Positions 42,403 through 61,646 of a DNA stretch of 64,000 bases are shown in pieces. Positions within the stretch are counted from its first letter, which is position 1, and the number at the start of each line of letters is the position of its first letter. A program made the position numbers and the translations under genes. Source of the stretch: Anaerolineae bacterium (GTDB taxonomy: Bacteria > Chloroflexota > Anaerolineae > 4572-78 > J111); assembly GCA_016931895.1 (NCBI GenBank), contig JAFGDY010000030.1:1-64000 (forward strand), given 5' to 3'. The notes beneath the pieces are model-generated. The model was not told the origin of the DNA. It worked only from the letters and a program-made list of their open reading frames with translations, and made no database searches.

Positions 42403-42864
42403 ATGCTAGACCAGCATAATCGGCCAAAGCGTATTTTAATTGTTGATGATGAGTCAACCCTGGTTTTCTTTTTAAAGCAAGGCTTACAAGAATCCGGTAT
42501 TTCTTGCCTGGTTGACGATGCCGCTTCCGGTGAAGAAGCGTTAACCAAACTAACCTATAATCGGTACGATTTACTGGTGACCGATCTAAAAATGCCCGGC
42601 ATCAACGGGTTTACGTTGTTGGAAGTGGCTCGTTCGCTGCATCCAGATATTAGCATTGTGCTGATGACGGCCTTTGGCTCGCCCGAAGTGCAAGAAGAAG
42701 CGAAGCGGCTTAAAGTAGATGGTTATCTCACCAAACCATTCCCCACCGCGCAATTACAAAGTTTGGTTAATGAGGTGTTGGCCGCCCAAAACGCTTTGGG
42801 GGGCTCCCCGGCAACAAGTCGGCAAGGGGTGCTGCTTGAACAAAATAGTGAAGAACTTTCATAA
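42403..42864 (+). CDS. response-regulator receiver protein
   Basis: 153 residues. REC domain: ILIVDDESTLVFFL, LLVTDLKMPGINGFTL (phospho-acceptor Asp, about 61), IVLMTAFGSPE and GYLTKPFP. The remaining 30 residues (AAQNALGGSPATSRQGVLLEQNSEELS) form no recognised domain. In sequence it is closest in style to NtrC-type receivers (DLKMPGINGF, LMTAFGS), but the ATPase and DNA-binding parts are absent. First gene of the signalling cluster. Confidence 0.92.
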   Translation: MLDQHNRPKRILIVDDESTLVFFLKQGLQESGISCLVDDAASGEEALTKLTYNRYDLLVTDLKMPGINGFTLLEVARSLHPDISIVLMTAFGSPEVQEEAKRLKVDGYLTKPFPTAQLQSLVNEVLAAQNALGGSPATSRQGVLLEQNSEELS

Positions 42865-42879
42865 GGAGGCCGCTCAACT

Positions 42880-43257
42880 ATGGGCAAAGCCAAGGTGCTA
42901 TATATTGAAGACAACCCTGATAACATGATCCTGGTGAAACGAGTATTGGAGATAGAGGGTTACGAGGTGATTGCCGCTGCCACCGGCAAGGAAGGATTGC
43001 ACAAGGCCCTTCTGAACCTGCCAGACATCATTATTACCGACATCAACTTGCCGGATATTGACGGCTACGAAATTACCAACAACTTAAAAAAAGAAAGAGC
43101 AACCGCTCACATTCCCATTGTGGCCATGACGGCCAATGTGATGAAAAAAGACCGAGACAACGTTTTTGACGCCGGCTGCGACGGTTACATCTCTAAACCC
43201 ATTGATGTTGACGAACTTCCCGAACAGATTGAAAGCTTTCTGAAAGGTGCCTCATGA
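42880..43257 (+). CDS. stand-alone response-regulator receiver
   Basis: 125 residues, one REC domain: VLYIEDNPDNMILVKRVL, IIITDINLPDIDGYEI (phospho-acceptor Asp), IVAMTANVMKKD and GYISKPIDVDELPEQIESFL. The C-terminal GCDGYISKPIDVDELPEQ is nearly repeated in the receiver of the kinase at 58329 (GCDGYIPKPIDVDQFPEQ), so the two are close relatives. AAGGAGG-like site before the ATG, 15 bp after the preceding gene. Confidence 0.93.
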   Translation: MGKAKVLYIEDNPDNMILVKRVLEIEGYEVIAAATGKEGLHKALLNLPDIIITDINLPDIDGYEITNNLKKERATAHIPIVAMTANVMKKDRDNVFDAGCDGYISKPIDVDELPEQIESFLKGAS

Positions 43258-43700
43258 TGACCGATATAGCGACAAAGACCCAAAAAAAACAGATTGATCC
43301 CAAAGATGCTTACGTGTTGGTGGTGGAAGACAACCTGCAAAACCTGGTGTTGATTGCCCGGCTGTTGGCCTTTATTGGCGTCCGCCGGTACGAGTGGAGA
43401 GCCTCCGGCTGGCAGGTTTTGGAATTTGCCGACACCATGCCCCAGGTTGACCTGGTGCTGATGGACCTCCACCTGCCTTACCAGGACGGTTACGAAGCCC
43501 TGGCCAAATTGCGCAGCGACCCCCGTTTTGCCGAAACTCGGATTGTGGCCGTCACCGCCGACGCCAATCCCGCTTCCATGGAAAAAGCCAAAAAAGCCGG
43601 GTTCGATGGATTCCTGGGCAAACCCATAGACCCCGACAAATTCCCCGACCAGATCATCCAGATTCTACAGGGGAATACCGTGTGGGATTTAGGGTACTGA
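43254..43700 (+). CDS. response-regulator receiver protein
   Basis: 148 residues; the ATG overlaps the preceding stop by 4 bp. After 20 linker residues comes a REC domain: VLVVEDNLQNLVLIARLL, LVLMDLHLPYQDGYEA (phospho-acceptor Asp), IVAVTADANPASM and GFLGKPIDPDKFPDQIIQIL. The insertion RRYEWRASGWQVLEFADTMPQ is atypical for the second strand-helix. No output domain. Confidence 0.92.
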   Translation: MMTDIATKTQKKQIDPKDAYVLVVEDNLQNLVLIARLLAFIGVRRYEWRASGWQVLEFADTMPQVDLVLMDLHLPYQDGYEALAKLRSDPRFAETRIVAVTADANPASMEKAKKAGFDGFLGKPIDPDKFPDQIIQILQGNTVWDLGY

Positions 43701-43768
43701 TTACAAGATTGTCGCTTTTTTATTAAAATTGAGTTAGGCCGATCACGAGTCAAGAATTGAGAAACATC

Positions 43769-46700
43769 ATGAGCCAACAAGAGGTGGTTAAACAACTGCA
43801 AGCGCAAGTTGAAGAATTGACCCAAACGCTGGCCAAAACCAATCGTCTGGCGCAATACCTGGAAACCGGCGCCCAGGTGAGCCGGGTGATTGCTTCAACC
43901 CATAATCTTGATAAGCTTAACAAACAAATTGTCAAAATCATCAAAGATGGCTTTGACTTTTACCAAGTAGCCGTTTTTTTGATTGACCACTCGGCCCAAT
44001 GGGCGGTGCTGCACGAGGCCACCGGCAAGGCCGGTCGGGAAATGAAAAAAGAGGGCTATCGCCTGCCGGTGGACGACGATCAATCCATTATCGGTTGGGT
44101 CAATCAAAATAGAAAGCCATGTTTTTTTTATTTCCACGAACAGGAAAGGGGTCAAAACGGGCGCCATCGTCATTATCATCTCACCCCTCCTCCCCCTCGC
44201 ACCGGACGCCGTTTGGAGATGGTGCTGCCCCTTATTGCCAAAGATCGCCTGGTTGGCACCCTCCATTTGCAAAGCGCCAAAGGCAGCACGTTTGAGCCGG
44301 ATGATGTAACGGCCTTGCAAACCCTGGCCGACCAGATTGCTTCGGCCATTGAAAAAACGCAGCTCTACCTTGAGGCTATCTCTGAACGCGATAAAAATAG
44401 CCTGCTCTATGAGATCAGCAATGCCCTGAGCAAAGCGCTGGACTTTGACGCCGTAACCGCCACCGCGGTTGGTTTTGCCAACCGCCTGGGCGCTACCTCC
44501 GGCGAAATCCACTTACTGGCCGATACCGGCGAGGTTTACTTTAAAAGCACCTATCCCGAACGGAACGAACTCTCAGACCCGGAACGGCAAACCGTGGTTA
44601 AGCGTATCCTGGCCGAAGGTTTGGACGCCTGGGTGCTCAAACATGAGCAATCGGCCCTTATCACCGATACGCAGCAGGATGAGCGCTGGCTGGTTATTGA
44701 ATATGCCGACCAAACCGTCTCCGTCCGTTCTATTATCTGCTCGCCTATCAGAGTGGGGCGAGACCAACTCAAAGGGGCCATTTCCTTTGTTCATCCCGAA
44801 CCCAACCATTTCAACGAGCAAGACCTGACCCGCCTGGGCACCCTCGCCTCGCAAATAGCTGTAGCCCTGGAAAACACCATGCTGGTTAATGATATTCAGC
44901 ATAACCTGCAAGAAACCCACCTGATGTTAGACATTAGCCGCCAACTGGCGGCCGCCACAAACATCAACGACGTTTACGCCGCCCTGGTCAAAAGTATTAT
45001 GGCCGTAGGCGTGGAGCGCAGCGTATTATACATGTGCGACGAGCTGGACTCCGGCACTAATTCAAGACATGGCGAAATTGTGTTTGTGAGCGATACCCGT
45101 GCCGCCGCCAGCGATGAAGGCATTGGCGACCGTTTCCGCCTGGCCGACTACCCGGTTCTGGAAGAATTGACCCGCACCCAGGAAACGCTGGTTATAGACC
45201 ATGTTTCCGGCGATCAGCGTTTGAGCGAGGCGGAACAGGAGTTCTTATCAAGATTTGGCACCCAGAGTTTGGCCCTTAACCCCCTGGTAGCGCGCGGCCG
45301 GGTGATTGGCTTCATCTCCATAGAATACCGGGTGCCCTATAGCTTCAACCAGCGTGAACTGGCCATGTACCGCACCGTCTGTAACCAGACCACCATTGCC
45401 ATTGAAAATGCCCGCCAGATTCAACGCTCCGAAGCGGCCCTGGCTGAAACGCAGTTACTTTACCGGGCGGGTCGCGTGCTGGCCGGCGCCGCCGACATCC
45501 AGGAAGTGTTGGAAGAAGCGCTGGTTGAATTTCTGTACAGCCTGGGGCTGGATCAAGGCGCCATTACCCTGCTCACCTCCGACCGCAAATACGGCCAGCT
45601 TATGGTTTATGTGCAGGATAGCCAGGTGCAGGATACTGAGGGTTTAAAATTCCCCGTTATCGAAGGCGTACCCTACCAGGAAATCCTGCTGGCCGGCCAA
45701 CCGTTCACCAGCTACGATGTCGCCAATGACCCCCGCCTGGAAGAGTTTCGCAGTTTCAATGTAGAACCTCCCAGGTCGCTGCTGGAAGCGCCATTGATTA
45801 TTCAGGGAGAAACGGTTGGCTGGATTGGGGCCGACGCGGTAAAACAACATCGGGAATTTACCCAACGAGAAATTGACCTGGCCCGGGCCATGGCCGACCA
45901 AATTGCCATCACCATTCAAAATCGCCGCCTGCTGGAACAAACCGAGCGCCGGGCCGAACAGCTCAGAGCCGTGGCCGAAGTTGGCGAGGCCGTCTCGCGC
46001 ATGATTGACCTGGATGAAGTGCTCAACAAAACGGTTGACCTCATTCGGGATCGTTTTGGCTTTTATCACGTTTCCATCTTCCTGCTCAACGAGGCCAGAG
46101 ATTGGGCCGTGGTCCGCGCCTCCACCGGCAAAGTCGGCAAAATTATGGTTGAGCGGCCTCACCGTTTGGAAGTGGGCGGCAAATCCATTGTGGGTTACGT
46201 AACCGATCAAGCCCAACCCCGCATTGCCCTGGACGTGGGTGAAGACGCCGTTCACTTCAATAATCCGTTGTTGCCCAATACCCGTTCAGAAATGGCCCTG
46301 CCCCTCATTTCTCGCGGCACGGTGATTGGCGCCCTGGACGTGCAAAGTGAAAAAGCCAACGCTTTTAGTAACGAAGATATTGAAACCCTGCAAGTGATGG
46401 CCAACCAATTGACCGCCGCTCTGCAAAACGCCCAACTCTTTGACCAAACCCAACGCCGCCTGATGGAACAAGCCACCTTATACGGCATCGGCACCAAAAT
46501 GGGGGCTACGCTTGATCTCCAGGACGCCACCGATAACCTGGTCACTGAAACCGCCGAAGCTCTTGGCGTGGCCGAGTGCGCCCTGACTTTGATTGAAGAG
46601 AACAGCCTTTACACCATCAGCGACTATACCCGGCGAGATACATCACATTCTATCAAACAGCATCGCCGCCCGCATTTTAATTTTAGCGACTCGGCTTACC

Positions 46701-48232
46701 TGACCAAAGTCATGGAAACCAAACAGGAACTGAGAGTTCACCTCAACGCTCCCTCCATCTTTGATACAAACAGCCCGGAATTTGATTACCTGAAAACGCA
46801 CCAGGGCACGGCCTTGCTCATTGTGCCGGTGCTACTCAGAAACGACGTGATTGCCTTTTTGGAAGTTTACGACAACAAGCCTGACCGCCGTTTTCGCGAA
46901 GACAATATTTCTTTGTTAGACTCCATTGCCCTGCAAGCCGCCAATACCATTGAAAACATCCGCTTGTTTGAGTCTACCCAATACCGTTCCCGTTTGCTGC
47001 AAACCGCCGCCGAAGTTTCCCGAACCGCCACCTCGATTCTGGATATTCACGAACTGATTAGCGCCACGGTCAATCTCATCCGTGATAAGTTTGACTTTTA
47101 TTACGTTGGTCTTTTCTTGGTTGACGAGGAGAAAGAGTGGGCTGTGCTGGAGGCCGGCACCGGCGAAGCCGGACGGCTCCAGGTTGAAGCCGAGCACCGC
47201 CTCAAGATTGGGGGCGAGTCTATGATTGGCTGGAGCGTTAAAAATCGGCAGGCCCGCATTGCCCTGGATGTGGGGGAAGATGCGGTTTGGTTCAATAACC
47301 CCTACCTGCCTGATACCCACTCGGAAATGGCCCTGCCGTTGATTAGCCGGGACGAGGTGATTGGCGCGCTGACCGTACAGAGCGTGGAGCGCGGCGCATT
47401 TTCCGACGAAGACATTATCCTGCTGCAAACAATGGCCGACCAGGTGGCCAACGCTATTCAAAATGCGCGCTTTTTTACCCAAACCCAGCTTGCGCTTTCT
47501 GAAACTGAAAAATTGTACCAAATCACTCAGGAATTGCTTTCCGCCCGCGACGAGGAGGCCGTTTATCAAGTGGCCATCGAGGCCATCACTCAGTCGGGCA
47601 TTGATTCCAGCGCCATCTACATGTATGTGGATGATCCAGACAGCGCCGAGCAAATGATTGAACAAAAAGCAATTTGGGCCAATACCGGCGAGCCAATCTT
47701 TCCCAATGGCACCCGCTTCAAGGCCGGCGACCTGGTGATGGAACAACTGGTGCCTTTGCACGATGGCTTGTTTATTGAAGACATTGATGAGGACCCCCGC
47801 CTGACCGACCGGGTCCGCCGCTCGTTAAAACTGATCCGCATCAAAACGCTGCTGGTGCTGCCGCTATCCACTTTCCAGAACCGGCTTGGGTTTTTGCTGG
47901 TGGCCTATAAAGCCAAAAGCAAAAGCTTTACCACCTCCCAAACCAGGCTCTACCACACCATTGTGCAGCAAATGGTGGTAGCCCTGGAAAACCTGCGCCT
48001 GTTAGAAGCATCCCAGCGGCGGGCCAAACGCGAGGAGATTATCCGAGAAATTACCGGCAAAATCAGAAGCACTACCAACGTGGACGATATTCTCAAAACA
48101 ACCGTGACCGAATTGAGCAAAGTTCTGGGCGCGGCCAATGGCGGTGTTATCCTGGGCCTGGGCGGTTCCGGCTCAAACGTTAATCCCGCTGCCGGATCAG
48201 GTCAGGTTGAGTCAAAACGGGTAAAGTCATGA
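43769..48232 (+). CDS. multi-GAF sensor protein with eight GAF domains
   Basis: 1487 residues from the ATG at 43769 (a TTG 12 bases earlier is in frame). A coiled-coil start (EVVKQLQAQVEELTQTLAKT) is followed by eight GAF domains at about 30-200, 213-375, 385-555, 565-723, 738-895, 905-1072, 1080-1240 and 1250-1417, each ending in a helix such as IQNRRLLE or LENLRLLE. A tail of 60 residues (REEIIREITGKIRSTTNVDDILKTTVTELSKVLGA) resembles the first third of another GAF and then stops. There is no kinase, cyclase or receiver domain. GAFs 5 and 7 share IALDVGEDAVxFNNPxLPxTxSEMALPLISR. It must act through partners, presumably the kinases of the cluster. Confidence 0.88.
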   Translation: MSQQEVVKQLQAQVEELTQTLAKTNRLAQYLETGAQVSRVIASTHNLDKLNKQIVKIIKDGFDFYQVAVFLIDHSAQWAVLHEATGKAGREMKKEGYRLPVDDDQSIIGWVNQNRKPCFFYFHEQERGQNGRHRHYHLTPPPPRTGRRLEMVLPLIAKDRLVGTLHLQSAKGSTFEPDDVTALQTLADQIASAIEKTQLYLEAISERDKNSLLYEISNALSKALDFDAVTATAVGFANRLGATSGEIHLLADTGEVYFKSTYPERNELSDPERQTVVKRILAEGLDAWVLKHEQSALITDTQQDERWLVIEYADQTVSVRSIICSPIRVGRDQLKGAISFVHPEPNHFNEQDLTRLGTLASQIAVALENTMLVNDIQHNLQETHLMLDISRQLAAATNINDVYAALVKSIMAVGVERSVLYMCDELDSGTNSRHGEIVFVSDTRAAASDEGIGDRFRLADYPVLEELTRTQETLVIDHVSGDQRLSEAEQEFLSRFGTQSLALNPLVARGRVIGFISIEYRVPYSFNQRELAMYRTVCNQTTIAIENARQIQRSEAALAETQLLYRAGRVLAGAADIQEVLEEALVEFLYSLGLDQGAITLLTSDRKYGQLMVYVQDSQVQDTEGLKFPVIEGVPYQEILLAGQPFTSYDVANDPRLEEFRSFNVEPPRSLLEAPLIIQGETVGWIGADAVKQHREFTQREIDLARAMADQIAITIQNRRLLEQTERRAEQLRAVAEVGEAVSRMIDLDEVLNKTVDLIRDRFGFYHVSIFLLNEARDWAVVRASTGKVGKIMVERPHRLEVGGKSIVGYVTDQAQPRIALDVGEDAVHFNNPLLPNTRSEMALPLISRGTVIGALDVQSEKANAFSNEDIETLQVMANQLTAALQNAQLFDQTQRRLMEQATLYGIGTKMGATLDLQDATDNLVTETAEALGVAECALTLIEENSLYTISDYTRRDTSHSIKQHRRPHFNFSDSAYLTKVMETKQELRVHLNAPSIFDTNSPEFDYLKTHQGTALLIVPVLLRNDVIAFLEVYDNKPDRRFREDNISLLDSIALQAANTIENIRLFESTQYRSRLLQTAAEVSRTATSILDIHELISATVNLIRDKFDFYYVGLFLVDEEKEWAVLEAGTGEAGRLQVEAEHRLKIGGESMIGWSVKNRQARIALDVGEDAVWFNNPYLPDTHSEMALPLISRDEVIGALTVQSVERGAFSDEDIILLQTMADQVANAIQNARFFTQTQLALSETEKLYQITQELLSARDEEAVYQVAIEAITQSGIDSSAIYMYVDDPDSAEQMIEQKAIWANTGEPIFPNGTRFKAGDLVMEQLVPLHDGLFIEDIDEDPRLTDRVRRSLKLIRIKTLLVLPLSTFQNRLGFLLVAYKAKSKSFTTSQTRLYHTIVQQMVVALENLRLLEASQRRAKREEIIREITGKIRSTTNVDDILKTTVTELSKVLGAANGGVILGLGGSGSNVNPAAGSGQVESKRVKS

Positions 48233-49311
48233 GCAAGTCAACTGAATTGATGGAAATTCACGCTGCCTTATCGCCACAAAAAAGCAAACTGGTTAACCTG
48301 TATCACCAGATTTTGCAAGAAAATCCACCCTCCCGCCGCCCCCGGCCTGCCGACTTAAAGAAGCTGGCTGCGGATGAGGTGAAAGCTTTATTGGGCTTTA
48401 TCAAAAACCCCGACCAGGCCGCAGTTCGCCAACGCGGCGCGCAATTATGCCAGGCCGGTTTGGATGAAGCCGCCCTTTTACAATGGGGACAGGCCGTCCG
48501 AAAATTCTGCCTTACCCAACTACCGGAGCAGTTGCGGCTGCCGGTGTTGGATGTATTAGAGTCTTACCACCAAACGGTCACCCGTAGTTACATTCTGGCC
48601 CGCGAAATCAGCGTGGTGGAAGAGGCGGAGTCGCTTTTGCAAGAAACCATTGCCATGCAGCAGCTCAGCCAGGCCCTCTCCGGGACCCTGCAATTTGACG
48701 AAATCCTGGACTTTTTCTTTCAAACCTGTACCAAAGTGCTGGGGTTTGATTTTGTGATTTTTTCTTTGGTTGACAAAGACCAACAGCGAGTGAACGCCAT
48801 TGCCGGGGTGGGTGTCTCCCAAGCCCATCTTAAACGCGCCAGCCATCCCATGGACAGCGCAGACATCATGGCCGATATTATCAGAACCGGCAGAACCGAA
48901 ATTATCACCGGCTGGGATGAACGTTTTGACTCTAAAAACTTTGAGGCTGAAAGTATGGCCGAGTGGGGGATGCGCCTGTTTACGCCCATTACCCTGCGCC
49001 GAGAAAATATTGGCCTGGTTGAAGTTGGGTTCAACAAAAATGTGGAAGCCGCCATTGAAGATTCCCAGCTCAGATTGCTCAGAGCCTTTATTGACCAGAC
49101 CGCCCTGGCCCTGGATAACGCCCAGCGTTACCAGGCCAGCCGGCGCGCCACCCACCGCGAGAGCTTGATTAAAGAAATTACTACCAAAGTGAGAGCCTCG
49201 ACCAACCTGGATACCGTTTTGCAAACCACTGTGAAAGAGTTAGGCGATGCCTTTGGGGGCAAACGAACCTACGTTCACCTGGTATCCCCTTCCAACAGCC
49301 ACGACCAGTGA
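48229..49311 (+). CDS. single-GAF signalling protein
   Basis: 360 residues; the ATG overlaps the stop of the eight-GAF gene by 4 bp. Residues 1-130 are helical (IHAALSPQKSKLVNLYHQILQENPP ... RKFCLTQLPEQLRLPVLDVLESYHQTVTRSYILARE), similar in style to helical N-terminal sensor/partner domains. Residues 140-300 form one GAF domain. The C-terminus (LIKEITTKVRASTNLDTVLQTTVKELGDAFGGKRTYVHL) repeats the truncated tail found in the preceding protein. No catalytic domain. Confidence 0.82.
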   Translation: MSKSTELMEIHAALSPQKSKLVNLYHQILQENPPSRRPRPADLKKLAADEVKALLGFIKNPDQAAVRQRGAQLCQAGLDEAALLQWGQAVRKFCLTQLPEQLRLPVLDVLESYHQTVTRSYILAREISVVEEAESLLQETIAMQQLSQALSGTLQFDEILDFFFQTCTKVLGFDFVIFSLVDKDQQRVNAIAGVGVSQAHLKRASHPMDSADIMADIIRTGRTEIITGWDERFDSKNFEAESMAEWGMRLFTPITLRRENIGLVEVGFNKNVEAAIEDSQLRLLRAFIDQTALALDNAQRYQASRRATHRESLIKEITTKVRASTNLDTVLQTTVKELGDAFGGKRTYVHLVSPSNSHDQ

Positions 49312-56594: not shown

Positions 56595-58280
56595 GTGTCT
56601 AAACGATTTTCTTATCAATGTCCTAAATGTGGCCACAGCCAGGTCTATAAAACGTTGGCGGAAGCCTGTCCAGAGTGCGGAGGGGATTGGCTTGATTTTA
56701 TTTATGATTTAAATGAAACCGTTGCTACCTGGCAGCGGGAGTTGCCGCTCCGGGACCGGACCATGTGGCGGTATTGGGAGCTGTTGCCCCTGCTCAATGA
56801 AAGCAATATTGTTTCTATGGGCGAAGGTTGGACCCCGCTGCTGCACGCCGAAAATCTGGGTTCTATGTTGCGGCATGGCAATCTTTTTATCAAAGACGAA
56901 AGGCAAGGCCCCACCGCCTCTTTTAAAGACCGGCAGGCCTCTCTGGCCCTTTCTGTGCTCAAGGAAAATGATTTAAAGGAGATGGTGGTGGCCTCTACCG
57001 GCAATGTGGCTATTTCTTATTCAGCCTATTGCGCCCGCGCCGGGGTAAAGTTATGGGCCTTTTTGGATAGCGATGTGCCTCACGAAAAAATGCGTGAGGT
57101 TACGCTCTATGGCACCGAAGTGATCAAAGTATCCAGCAGCTATGATCGCACCAAGCAGGTGGCCGCCCAATTCGCCCAACATCGAAACCTGTTTCTGGAT
57201 AAGGGCATCCGGGGCGTGGCCGCCAGAGAAGCCATGAAAACCATTGCCTTTGAAATTGCCGAGCAGTTGGGGCGTAAGCTGAACATGGGCTGGACCGCGC
57301 CGGATTGGTATATCCAGGCCGTTAGCGGCGGAATGGGGCCGATTGGCGTTTGGCGCGGGTTTCACCAATTATACGAGATGGGCCTGGTTAAAAAAATACC
57401 TAAATTGGCCGTTATCCAAACCGCCGGCTGCTCCCCCATGGTCAACAGTTTTCACAAAGGGCTGGAAATTTGCGAAATTGTTGATAATCCGTCCAGCATT
57501 ATCAATGTTCTGGCCACCGGCAATCCCGGCCCGGCCTATCCTTACTTGCGCCGTCTTGTGCTTACGCATGGCGGGGCTTTTGTTAAAGTAGACGACCAAG
57601 CTTCTTTCAGAGCCATGCGGGTGATGGCCCAATTAGAAGGCTTATCTATGGAACCGGCGGCGGCGGTGGCCTGCGCCGGGCTGGTGCAAATGATCCAAAA
57701 TGGCCTCATCCAGCCCAACGAGGTGGTGGTGGTTAACGCCTCCGGTCACACCTTCCCGGTGGAAAAACAAATTCTGGAAAACGAAATTGTCAAAAGCCAC
57801 ACCCGGGTTCAGGAACTGGAAAAAGAGGTAGTGGAAGGAGAACAACCGGATACCATTCATCTGCGCCAGGAGGGCCTGTTAACGGCCCTGGAACGCCTGG
57901 ACGACCGCGTGCAGAGCGTGGCCATTATTGAAGACGAACCCGACGCCCGCATTTTGCTGCGCCGCATTTTGCAGCACAATAAGCGGCAATATAGAATTTT
58001 TGAAGCCCCCGACGGCGTCAGCGGCATCTCGCTGATTCGTGCAGAACGGCCTGATCTGGTATTATTAGATTTAATGATGCCCGAACTGGATGGGTTTTCG
58101 GTGCTGGATACCATCAAGGCTGATAGAGATTTGCGCAACATCCCCGTGATTGTGATTACGGCCAAAGATTTGACCAGAGAAGATTACGAACGCCTGTCGG
58201 GGCGAGTTGAATCGCTGTTGCAAAAGGGGATGTTTATGGAAGAGGAACTTTTTGAAAGTATCAGTGATGTGCTAGAATAA
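56595..58280 (+). CDS. threonine synthase fused to a response-regulator receiver
   Basis: 561 residues from a GTG. Residues 1-30 are a zinc ribbon (Cys9, 12, 25, 28: CPKCG ... CPECGG). Residues 60-400 are a threonine-synthase-type PLP enzyme: GEGWTPLLHAENLG, TASFKDRQASLAL with Schiff-base Lys111, VASTGNVAISYSAYCARAG and the phosphate-binding region AVSGGMGPIGVWRGF. After a charged helix (about 402-440) comes a full receiver domain (about 440-561) with acidic pocket VAIIEDEPDARILL and phospho-acceptor Asp492 (LLDLMMPELDG). The receiver C-terminus (RVESLLQKGMFMEEELFESI) matches the last receiver of the adjacent giant kinase. Whether it still makes threonine from phosphohomoserine is open. Confidence 0.93.
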   Translation: MSKRFSYQCPKCGHSQVYKTLAEACPECGGDWLDFIYDLNETVATWQRELPLRDRTMWRYWELLPLLNESNIVSMGEGWTPLLHAENLGSMLRHGNLFIKDERQGPTASFKDRQASLALSVLKENDLKEMVVASTGNVAISYSAYCARAGVKLWAFLDSDVPHEKMREVTLYGTEVIKVSSSYDRTKQVAAQFAQHRNLFLDKGIRGVAAREAMKTIAFEIAEQLGRKLNMGWTAPDWYIQAVSGGMGPIGVWRGFHQLYEMGLVKKIPKLAVIQTAGCSPMVNSFHKGLEICEIVDNPSSIINVLATGNPGPAYPYLRRLVLTHGGAFVKVDDQASFRAMRVMAQLEGLSMEPAAAVACAGLVQMIQNGLIQPNEVVVVNASGHTFPVEKQILENEIVKSHTRVQELEKEVVEGEQPDTIHLRQEGLLTALERLDDRVQSVAIIEDEPDARILLRRILQHNKRQYRIFEAPDGVSGISLIRAERPDLVLLDLMMPELDGFSVLDTIKADRDLRNIPVIVITAKDLTREDYERLSGRVESLLQKGMFMEEELFESISDVLE

Positions 58281-58328: not shown

Positions 58329-59702
58329 ATGGGGCTATTCCCTGGCTACCGTTTGCTATTTGGAGATACCGCATTGGCAAAACAAAAACGTGCTGATGGG
58401 TCAGGCCAGAAAAAAATATTATATATTGATGACGACCCGATTAATCGGTCTCTTATCAGCCGGTTGTTGACCAGTTACAACTTTAAGGTGCTGGAAGCGC
58501 AAACCGGCCTTGAAGGCATTACCATTGCCCGCAACGAAACGCCCGATTTGATCCTTATGGACATCAATATGCCGGGCCTCGACGGCCATGAAACCACCAC
58601 CCGCATGCGAAGCCTGCCGCTGCTGGAAAAAATTCCCATTGTGGCCGTAACGGCCCGCACCACCACCGGCGAGCGAGAGTTGGCCCTGGCCGCGGGCTGC
58701 GATGGTTACATTCCCAAACCCATTGACGTTGACCAATTTCCCGAGCAGGTGATTACTTACCTGGACGGTTACCGGGACACCATTTCGGCCACCCAACGAG
58801 AGTATTACCTGGGGCAATACAGCCAAAAATTGGTGGAGCGTTTGGAAGCCAAAATTGTAGAACTGGAAGAAGCCAACCGGCGGCTGCAAAAAACCGATAA
58901 ACTGAAATCCGACTTCATTACCCTCACCGCCCACGAATTCAGAACACCCATCACCCTGGTTTATGGTTACGCCCGTTTATTGCATACCACCGTTCAAGAA
59001 TCTGGCCGGGAAGACCTGACCCAGGGCACCATTGGCGAACTGACCGACCGAATTAGCCAGGCCGTGCAGCGTTTGAACGAGGCCGTCAACGATATTCTCA
59101 ATATTTCTCTCATTGAATCCGATGAAATGCGCCTGGATACCCGGCCCATCAACCTGGCCAAAATAATCAATGCCGCCCTGCAAGAGTTGGCCCCCGCCGA
59201 ACATGGCCGCGATTTGAATATCACGCTTGAAAATTTAGACACCCTGCCCTCGGTTAAAGGTGATGCGGAACGGCTCCAACAGGCATTTTGGAATTTGCTC
59301 AGCAACGCCATAAAATTTACGCCCGACGGCGGCTCAATTGTGATCAAAGGCCGGATAACCGATTCCCTTTCTTCCGAGTTTGCCGCCGCTCCCGCCGCGC
59401 CCCTGCCATTTAAAACCCCCAAAGAGGGCAAATGGATTATTATTTCCATTAAAGATAGCGGCATTGGCATTGACCCCTCTGAACAAAAAGAAATTTTTGA
59501 ACACTTCTACATTGTTGGCAATACAGATTACCACACCAGCAGTAAAACCGCCTTTGGCGGCGGCGGAATGGGGCTGGGCCTGCCTATTGCCTGCGGGATT
59601 GTCAAAGGCCACGGAGGCCGAATATGGGTTGAGAGCGCGGGCCGCGATGTAGAAAAAAATCTGGGCAGCACTTTTTACGTACTCCTGCCGCTCAGAAATT
59701 GA
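58329..59702 (+). CDS. receiver-histidine kinase hybrid
   Basis: 457 residues from the ATG at 58329; a TTG at 58374 with GGAG 8 bases upstream may be the true start, giving 442. N-terminal REC domain: ILYIDDDPINRSLI, LILMDINMPGLDGHET (phospho-acceptor Asp, about 77), IVAVTART and GYIPKPIDVDQFPEQ. A coiled coil (KLVERLEAKIVELEEANRRLQ) leads to HisKA with TAHEFRTPITLVYGYARLL and to HATPase_c with NLLSNAIKFTPDGGS, DSGIGID and GGGGMGLGLPIA. A receiver placed before the kinase suggests its activity is switched by another kinase, probably the giant one. Confidence 0.93.
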   Translation: MGLFPGYRLLFGDTALAKQKRADGSGQKKILYIDDDPINRSLISRLLTSYNFKVLEAQTGLEGITIARNETPDLILMDINMPGLDGHETTTRMRSLPLLEKIPIVAVTARTTTGERELALAAGCDGYIPKPIDVDQFPEQVITYLDGYRDTISATQREYYLGQYSQKLVERLEAKIVELEEANRRLQKTDKLKSDFITLTAHEFRTPITLVYGYARLLHTTVQESGREDLTQGTIGELTDRISQAVQRLNEAVNDILNISLIESDEMRLDTRPINLAKIINAALQELAPAEHGRDLNITLENLDTLPSVKGDAERLQQAFWNLLSNAIKFTPDGGSIVIKGRITDSLSSEFAAAPAAPLPFKTPKEGKWIIISIKDSGIGIDPSEQKEIFEHFYIVGNTDYHTSSKTAFGGGGMGLGLPIACGIVKGHGGRIWVESAGRDVEKNLGSTFYVLLPLRN

Positions 59703-60436
59703 GCCAAATGCCCCCGCAATCCCCGCCTCCTCCGGCCCCCCCTTTTTTTGTGCTTGCTTCCGGCTCTCCCCGTCGCCGGGAGTTTATGGAACTGTTGGGG
59801 CTGCCCTTTACCGTTTTGACCCCTCCCGCGGCGGGCAGCCAGGCCGTTGACGAAACCCCCCTGCCCGGCGAAACCCCGCCGGCCCTGGTGCAGCGTCTCA
59901 GCCGGATTAAGGCCAGGGCAGTGGTAGACATGCTTCCCTTGTTTGGGCCTGACCCTTTGACCGCAAAGGGCTTGGCTATTGTTGTTGCTGCCGATACCGT
60001 TGTGGTTTTGGCAGGCCAAATTTTGGGTAAACCCTCTGGTCCCGCCGAAGCCGGGCAAATGCTCAAACAATTGCGGCAGCAACCCCACTATGTCTACAGC
60101 GGCCTGACCGTCATTGCCGCCGGTTGGGAAACAGGTCAGGCGCACATTTCCAAATCAATCACTCGCCTGCATCAAAGCAAAGTCTGGATGCGGCCCTACA
60201 CCAACGCGGAAATTGCAGCCTACGTGGCCAGCGGCGACCCGTTGGACAAGGCCGGAGCTTACGGTATTCAAAACAAATCCTTTGCCCCTGTTGCCCGCCT
60301 GGAGGGTTGTTTTGCCAGCGTAATGGGCTTTCCCCTGGGCGAATTGGCGGCTGCGCTCAAAGAGATCAATATTTCTCTTCCTCCCGTAGCCCGCCTGTGC
60401 GCCCAACATACCCACCATCCTTGCTGTCAAGAATAG
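59699..60436 (+). CDS. maf: Maf-like nucleotide pyrophosphatase
   Basis: 245 residues from a TTG overlapping the kinase stop, or 242 from the ATG at 59708. Maf signature FVLASGSPRRREFMELLGLPF (about 16-36), VDETPLPGETPPALVQRLSRIKA, AADTVVVLAGQILGKP with the acidic catalytic Asp, VYSGLTVIA and DPLDKAGAYGIQ. Maf proteins hydrolyse non-canonical or methylated NTPs and affect septation. It is longer than usual (about 190-205) because of a Pro-rich start, an insertion (MLPLFGPDPLTAKG) and a His/Cys-rich tail (CAQHTHHPCCQE). Confidence 0.9.
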   Translation: MSQMPPQSPPPPAPPFFVLASGSPRRREFMELLGLPFTVLTPPAAGSQAVDETPLPGETPPALVQRLSRIKARAVVDMLPLFGPDPLTAKGLAIVVAADTVVVLAGQILGKPSGPAEAGQMLKQLRQQPHYVYSGLTVIAAGWETGQAHISKSITRLHQSKVWMRPYTNAEIAAYVASGDPLDKAGAYGIQNKSFAPVARLEGCFASVMGFPLGELAAALKEINISLPPVARLCAQHTHHPCCQE

Positions 60437-60470: not shown

Positions 60471-61646
60471 ATGTCGTTCAGAGATAGCCTCAATGCGTTG
60501 TTTGGCGTCAGCCTGCGGGTAATTGGCCTTATATTTGGAATGCGGCTTATTCGCGATACCGGCGCGCGGATGGTTTTGCCCTTCATCCCGCAAATTTCGG
60601 CAGGGTTGGGCCTGACCATTATTGTTTTTAGTTGGCTCATCTTCATCCAGGCGATGGTGGGAATGGTTGGCCCAATTTTTGGCATGTTGTCGGACCGTTA
60701 CGGTCGGCGCAAAATTATGGCCCTGGGCCTTTTCTGCCAGGGGGTGGGCGCCCTGGGTTTGGCTGCCTCCCGGCAAGTTTGGGCCGGGCTGCCTATGCTT
60801 GTTCTTGGCCTGGGTTTGGCTATCTTCATCCCGGTGCAGCAGGCTTACATTAGCGATCAAGTAGCCTACCAAAAACGCGGGCGCGCCCTGGCCGCCATAG
60901 AGTTTTCTTGGGCGCTGGTGGCCATTCTTATTTTGCCGGTGGTGGGCTGGTTGATGGCCCGTTTTGGCTGGCGCACGCCTTTTTTGGCGTTGGCCCCCTT
61001 TGCTTTTTTGGGGGCTATCCTCACCTGGTGGGGCCTGCCCCGCGTTGAACATCACACCCGAGCCGGTCTATCCTGGATTCAAGTGCGGACGGTTTGTTTT
61101 CGCCCCAATGTCCTGGCGGCTATGGTCGTATCCTGGCTGATCTTTGTGGCGTTGTCGTCATTTTTTTCCCTGTGGGGCATCTGGTTGACCGGCGATTTTG
61201 GCCTGGATGCCGCCGCCCTGGGCCTGGTGGCTACCGCCGTTGGCATCACCGAGTTGGGCGGCTCGGTTTCATCCAGCCTCTTCATTGACCGTCTGGGTAA
61301 AAAACGCGGCGCAGGGTTGGGGCTTTTTCTGGCGACCATTATTTTCCTGCTGCTGCCCCTAAGCCAGGGCCGGTTTGCCTGGGCGATTGGCGGGCTGGTC
61401 AGCCTGGGGCTGCTGCTGGAATTCACCATTGTTTCGCTCATCCCCCTCTATTCCGAGCAAGCCCCGGAAGCGCGCGGCACGGTGCTCTCGCTGATGGCGT
61501 TGGGATCGGCCATGGGACTGGCCATAGGCCCACCGCTGACCGCCACCCTGTGGCAGCAATTTGGTTTGGCGGCCGTCAGTGGGATTGCGGCCGGCTGTGT
61601 GTTTGTAGCCCTGGGGATTATGGGGAAATTTTTGCGCGAGGCCTGA
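60471..61646 (+). CDS. MFS transporter
   Basis: 391 residues with about twelve membrane segments. The loop between segments 2 and 3 has GMLSDRYGRRKIMALGL, the G-x-x-x-D-R-x-G-R-R motif of the major facilitator superfamily (about 75). A second, weaker copy (SSSLFIDRLGKKRGAGLGLF) lies in the second half. FIPVQQAYISDQVAYQKRGRALAAIEF is typical of drug/H+ antiporter-like members. The substrate is unknown. It starts 34 bp after maf and may be the last gene of the long plus-strand unit. Confidence 0.88.
   Translation: MSFRDSLNALFGVSLRVIGLIFGMRLIRDTGARMVLPFIPQISAGLGLTIIVFSWLIFIQAMVGMVGPIFGMLSDRYGRRKIMALGLFCQGVGALGLAASRQVWAGLPMLVLGLGLAIFIPVQQAYISDQVAYQKRGRALAAIEFSWALVAILILPVVGWLMARFGWRTPFLALAPFAFLGAILTWWGLPRVEHHTRAGLSWIQVRTVCFRPNVLAAMVVSWLIFVALSSFFSLWGIWLTGDFGLDAAALGLVATAVGITELGGSVSSSLFIDRLGKKRGAGLGLFLATIIFLLLPLSQGRFAWAIGGLVSLGLLLEFTIVSLIPLYSEQAPEARGTVLSLMALGSAMGLAIGPPLTATLWQQFGLAAVSGIAAGCVFVALGIMGKFLREA

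Follow-up and report, generated by a model that had tools for sequence, protein, structure and literature searches.

A fold-type II PLP enzyme carrying a receiver domain, encoded beside multi-GAF histidine kinases in Anaerolineae

The window analysed here, a stretch of 64,000 nucleotides from the assembly of an Anaerolineae bacterium, contains a run of signalling genes (Table 1) among which one open reading frame of 561 codons, with a GTG start and without internal stops, encodes a PLP enzyme and a receiver in a single chain. Pfam places PALP at residues 73-384 (1.6e-61), the profile being matched over its whole length (1-295 of 295), and Response_reg at residues 442-554 (1.3e-19) with 70.8 bits against a cut-off of 30.2, which makes the second part a member of the receiver family. 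The in-frame fusion proposed in an earlier, sequence-only reading of this DNA is thus borne out, and the zinc-ribbon cysteines, Lys111, the glycine loop S244-G248 and Asp492 were all found as first described, the residues of both active sites being intact. The coordinates likewise bear out the position that had been given for the gene, 31 bp past the GAF hybrid kinase and just ahead of a second kinase, which begins 48 bp downstream. That the upstream kinase is a hybrid with an array of GAF domains also stands, but the count of 11 does not, as Pfam gives nine GAF_2 stretches. Both flanking kinases retain the HisKA histidine and the ATP-binding motifs. Further upstream, ahead of the GAF array, three ORFs in tandem (positions 42403-43697; 153, 125 and 148 aa) encode stand-alone receivers, the first two confirmed by Pfam, which possibly form part of the same relay. 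The GAF proteins, encoded in the window at 43757-49311, differ greatly in number and length among relatives.

Table 1. Features of the fusion gene and of its neighbours, in positions of the window; residue numbers refer to the fusion protein.
Feature	Position	Strand	Basis
1491-aa multi-GAF protein lacking kinase motifs, part of this gene run	43757..48232	+	
360-aa GAF protein without histidine-kinase motifs, same gene run; 4-bp overlap with the 1491-aa gene	48229..49311	+	
Multi-GAF hybrid histidine kinase, GAF array-HisKA-HATPase-REC-REC, 2406 aa	49343..56563	+	Pfam, motifs
PALP-REC fusion gene (P0001), 561 aa	56595..58280	+	ORF, Pfam, alignment of relatives
N-terminal zinc ribbon, Cys 9/12/25/28	56619..56678	+	Alignment of 116 fused proteins
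PALP (fold-type II PLP enzyme) domain; Lys111, Asn137, S244-G-G-x-G-P249	56811..57746	+	Pfam, alignment, structure comparison
Flexible linker, residues 386-424	57750..57866	+	Predicted pLDDT <50
Pre-receiver segment EGLLTALERLDDRV, seemingly left over from alpha-5 of the penultimate receiver of a kinase	57870..57911	+	Alignment scores
Receiver domain; D447, phospho-acceptor D492, T522, K544	57918..58256	+	Pfam, alignment
REC-HisKA-HATPase kinase, conserved partner	58329..59702	+	Pfam, motifs
Maf-like protein; 4-bp overlap with the REC-kinase gene	59699..60436	+	Pfam
MFS transporter, conserved among genomes of the window's own family	60471..61646	+	Pfam

A joined frame of this kind could in principle reflect an assembly join, a frameshift or a chance read-through of two genes. 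This is wildly improbable here and was ruled out, because the reading frame is uninterrupted and the same in-frame fusion recurs, once duplicates are removed, in 116 distinct sequences whose assemblies are independent; neither of the outcomes named beforehand as fatal to the fusion, a frameshift or join and an absence from all relatives, came true. In an alignment of the 116 fused proteins, K111, N137, S244-G-G-x-G-P249, K165, E168 and G204 are kept in all, as are D447, D492 and K544, with T or S at 522 and E or D at 446; of the zinc-ribbon cysteines, C25 and C28 are present in all and C9 and C12 in 115, the remaining sequence having a gap. Mean identity among fused relatives is 63% for the PLP domain and 54% for the receiver, and the better conservation of the former fits a working enzyme. 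Among 301 Chloroflexota genomes sampled, mostly metagenome assemblies, the fusion occurs in 26 of the 37 other Anaerolineae genomes and is absent from 11 of them; beyond the class it turns up in seven genomes belonging to two families. Each of the 44 whole-genome matches at E<=1e-62 covers the enzyme and the receiver alike. When 60 relatives were searched, the fused protein was matched over its full length in most of the window's family and in numerous further families of the class, and a scan of named genomes, limited to the best 80 of 572 relatives, returned Chloroflexota exclusively (Anaerolineae, Anaerolineales, Thermoflexus, Ardenticatena and unnamed Chloroflexi). No match among plasmid records reached 80% query coverage, those obtained being threonine-synthase-like proteins only. 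The same genome encodes a second fused paralogue, PALP-REC-REC (L039:4717-6879, contig G000:C112), which adjoins a GAF-HK, is followed by a stand-alone receiver and is also found in relatives of this genome. Among the intact members of the clade none was found to be unfused, the apparent cases that were examined being contig ends (G003:C688, G023:C324 and G004:C290) or a decayed gene of the second paralogue type (L074:8276-9384, contig G021:C200), in which a frameshift is accompanied by loss of part of the PLP domain, with the SGGxGP stretch, and of both receivers, the adjoining stand-alone receiver being intact.

The neighbourhood recurs with the gene. Among 97 distinct loci, multi-GAF kinases or similar GAF proteins lie near the fusion in 65, mostly upstream and on the same strand, and a REC-HK partner occurs in 54, of which 52 have it directly after the fusion gene in the same orientation. 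The recurrence of a PALP and Response_reg pair beside GAF kinases, a point that the sequence-only reading had singled out for checking, is therefore seen well beyond the window. Histidine kinases are thus encoded on both sides of the gene in the window and beside it in most relatives, and the gene for a companion receiver or a REC-kinase often overlaps that of the fusion or comes straight after it. Thermoflexus-type loci showed no recognisable kinase homologue adjoining the fusion gene. Stand-alone receivers accompany it in 24 of the 97 loci, and Maf in 11. An EamA gene lies at most three genes away in 31 of the loci, four representatives having been confirmed by Pfam, and in other genomes an EamA transporter is found near the position where the window has its MFS transporter. 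Since the four genomes checked hold just some 7-17 EamA genes each (12-34 half-domain matches), such adjacency by chance would, as a rough estimate, amount to a few percent.

The two parts of the protein have a common history. When compared with 22 unfused threonine-synthase-like proteins, mostly from the same or related genomes, the fused PALP clade falls on one side of a single branch (support 100), and the distances within the PALP and receiver parts are correlated (Mantel r 0.83, with none of 999 permutations as high). A tree drawn from local receivers, to which closer kin may exist elsewhere in the genomes, unites the fused receivers (support 84) and groups them with the terminal receivers of the adjacent kinases (96), apart from the first receivers of those kinases and from the receiver of the downstream partner. 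Just ahead of the fused receiver lies a conserved segment, EGLLxALxxLD, that resembles alpha-5 of the kinases' penultimate receiver (EDLLxALxRLD); the mean local alignment score of the two (n=28) is 28.9 against 16.9 (sd 3.8) for shuffles, and the segment ahead of the kinase's first receiver scores 19.4. The fusion probably acquired its C-terminal receiver from the type of hybrid kinase encoded beside it, and the simplest reading of the segment would be that the receiver was copied from such a kinase's REC-REC tandem, the breakpoint falling within alpha-5.

The PLP domain had been described as of threonine-synthase type, and this holds for its fold and superfamily; it probably does not hold for the identity of the enzyme. 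In fold comparison the top matches are threonine synthases, with Z of 38-45 over 321-392 residues, apart from one cysteate-synthase chain, and the protein shares with ThrC (TIGR00260) the fold-type II architecture, the lysine motif PTxSFKDR and an N-terminal zinc ribbon like that of the genome's own ThrC-like proteins. Some EamA transporters, moreover, are threonine/homoserine exporters, such as RhtA, and a few fused relatives score 168-189 bits on TIGR00260, above its cut-off of 167.1. These observations would favour a true threonine synthase placed under phosphorylation control. However, the protein of the window reaches only 141 bits on that model, scores 246 on NF006050 against a cut-off of 303 and misses all other ThrC equivalog cut-offs as well. 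The motifs NSxNPxR...EGQK and GNxGN, which were taken as signatures of phosphohomoserine-using enzymes and several positions of which, we assume, contact the substrate phosphate in the Thermus threonine synthase, are present in solved bacterial enzymes, that of Thermus among them, and in the genome's own ThrC; in the fused sequences compared they are absent, with D-x-G...E-x-M-K-T and SGGxGP in their place. A thrC does exist elsewhere in the genome, as a canonical ThrC on another contig (C123, 282 bits), and eight of ten other fusion-bearing genomes likewise have a canonical ThrC, at 280-331 bits. A housekeeping role is disfavoured on these three grounds, by which threonine synthase is probably the wrong name, and a true threonine synthase under phosphorylation control is distinctly improbable; on the same observations a specialised paralogue is the likeliest identity of the enzyme. 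Nor is cysteate synthase (TIGR03844) a match, for this related PLP enzyme resembles the fusion in structure (Z 38.9 with 9k3c) but lacks a receiver, and the fusion scores 117.1 bits on its model against a cut-off of 324.9. A receiver is equally absent from the solved relatives found, among them threonine synthases of Thermus, Aquifex, Bacillus, Mycobacterium and Arabidopsis. A search of the genome for homoserine kinase gave weak matches under the cut-off for TIGR00191 and none for TIGR00938. The genome also encodes an unfused threonine-synthase-like protein (L183:5130-6392, contig G000:C251) that lies above the TIGR00260 cut-off and adjoins ORFs which, by the appearance of their sequences, resemble carbamate kinase and a carbamoyltransferase; the role of this protein may be catabolic rather than that of a ThrC.

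Taken together, these data allow the construction of a model, which we consider reasonably probable, in which the protein is a response regulator with a PLP enzyme as its output, set by the neighbouring kinases and acting on an amino-acid-like substrate that is moved by a transporter. Two-component control of a PLP enzyme fits the genomics because the fusion is invariant in intact members, both chemistries are kept and kinases flank most copies; that much of the earlier proposal of phosphorelay control survives, and what falls away is the novelty of the general kind and, probably, the threonine synthase identity. The mechanism that we infer, from phosphotransfer through catalytic activity and the direction of its control to substrate and transport, proposes that a fold-type II PLP enzyme descended within the threonine-synthase superfamily, its substrate pocket changed, came to carry a receiver. 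The GAF-array kinase, the probable phosphodonor, and the downstream REC-kinase would sense cues, probably intracellular ones, and set the phosphorylation of D492, which would in turn switch the activity or the assembly of the enzyme. In two AlphaFold models (mean pLDDT 80 and 86; pTM 0.70 for the deeper one) the protein consists of two well-folded parts joined by a linker that is predicted to be disordered and that varies in length among relatives; no usable domain interface that would support allostery was present in either model. Two folded parts on such a linker speak for a tethered switch and not for a rigid lever. As the linker is long and disordered, the switching would more likely proceed via receiver-receiver or partner contacts. 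The enzyme would then make or break a small amino-acid-like metabolite, which the neighbouring EamA or MFS transporter may carry across the membrane. Alternatively, information could flow the other way, with the PLP domain serving as a sensor or scaffold whose bound amino-acid-like ligand or intermediate alters the ability of the receiver to accept or pass on phosphate, so that the protein would read a metabolite and serve as the hub of a relay linking the GAF kinase to the REC-kinase. Such a role would suit a protein that sits between two kinases holding three further receivers, the receiver or REC-kinase genes that so often overlap or directly follow the fusion, and the two receivers of the second paralogue type with the stand-alone receiver after them. 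However, the strict retention of the Schiff-base lysine and the whole catalytic core throughout the fused proteins fits turnover better than binding, as does the transporter adjoining the gene in many genomes, and a sensory or hub function is accordingly judged unlikely. The reading of the protein as a response regulator with an enzymatic output is therefore retained.

The earlier remark that no described system of this kind was known can be upheld in part. Receivers attached to metabolic enzymes are already known from archaea according to PMC5847659 (citing Galperin, 2006, 2010), in which such fusions are said to place enzyme activity under environmental control and the examples given are KaiC-like proteins, a glycosyltransferase, thioredoxin reductase and pyruvate phosphate dikinase. 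The fusion studied here, encoded beside histidine kinases, likewise has its receiver on the same polypeptide as a metabolic-type enzyme. However, none of those examples is a PLP amino-acid enzyme; further, the archaeal fusions are there described as narrow in distribution, whereas the present one extends through a bacterial class and into two outside families. The pairing of a PLP enzyme with a receiver itself looks undescribed, no account of it having been found in the open-licence literature, with an earlier mention possible in the Galperin 2006 and 2010 surveys.

Most response regulators have DNA, cyclic dinucleotides or protein partners as their targets, and direct phosphorylation control of a small-molecule enzyme by a built-in receiver has, to our knowledge, seldom been studied. 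The pairing is old and exceptionless among intact members across much of an abundant and little-studied bacterial class, and, as the loci supply obvious candidate kinases, a bench test would be straightforward. Such genes may carry a threonine synthase annotation, which would lead to miscounts in pathway reconstructions. The available data suggest that Anaerolineae turn a specialised metabolic reaction on and off directly by signalling. A larger proposal, advanced tentatively and held to be rather doubtful, is that this is a class-wide signalling-metabolic device of the Anaerolineae, in which a PLP enzyme with an undescribed reaction is linked through phosphorylation to multi-GAF kinases and has an exporter as its partner; if so, intracellular cues would decide whether the cell releases or retains an amino-acid-like compound, which may be a signal.
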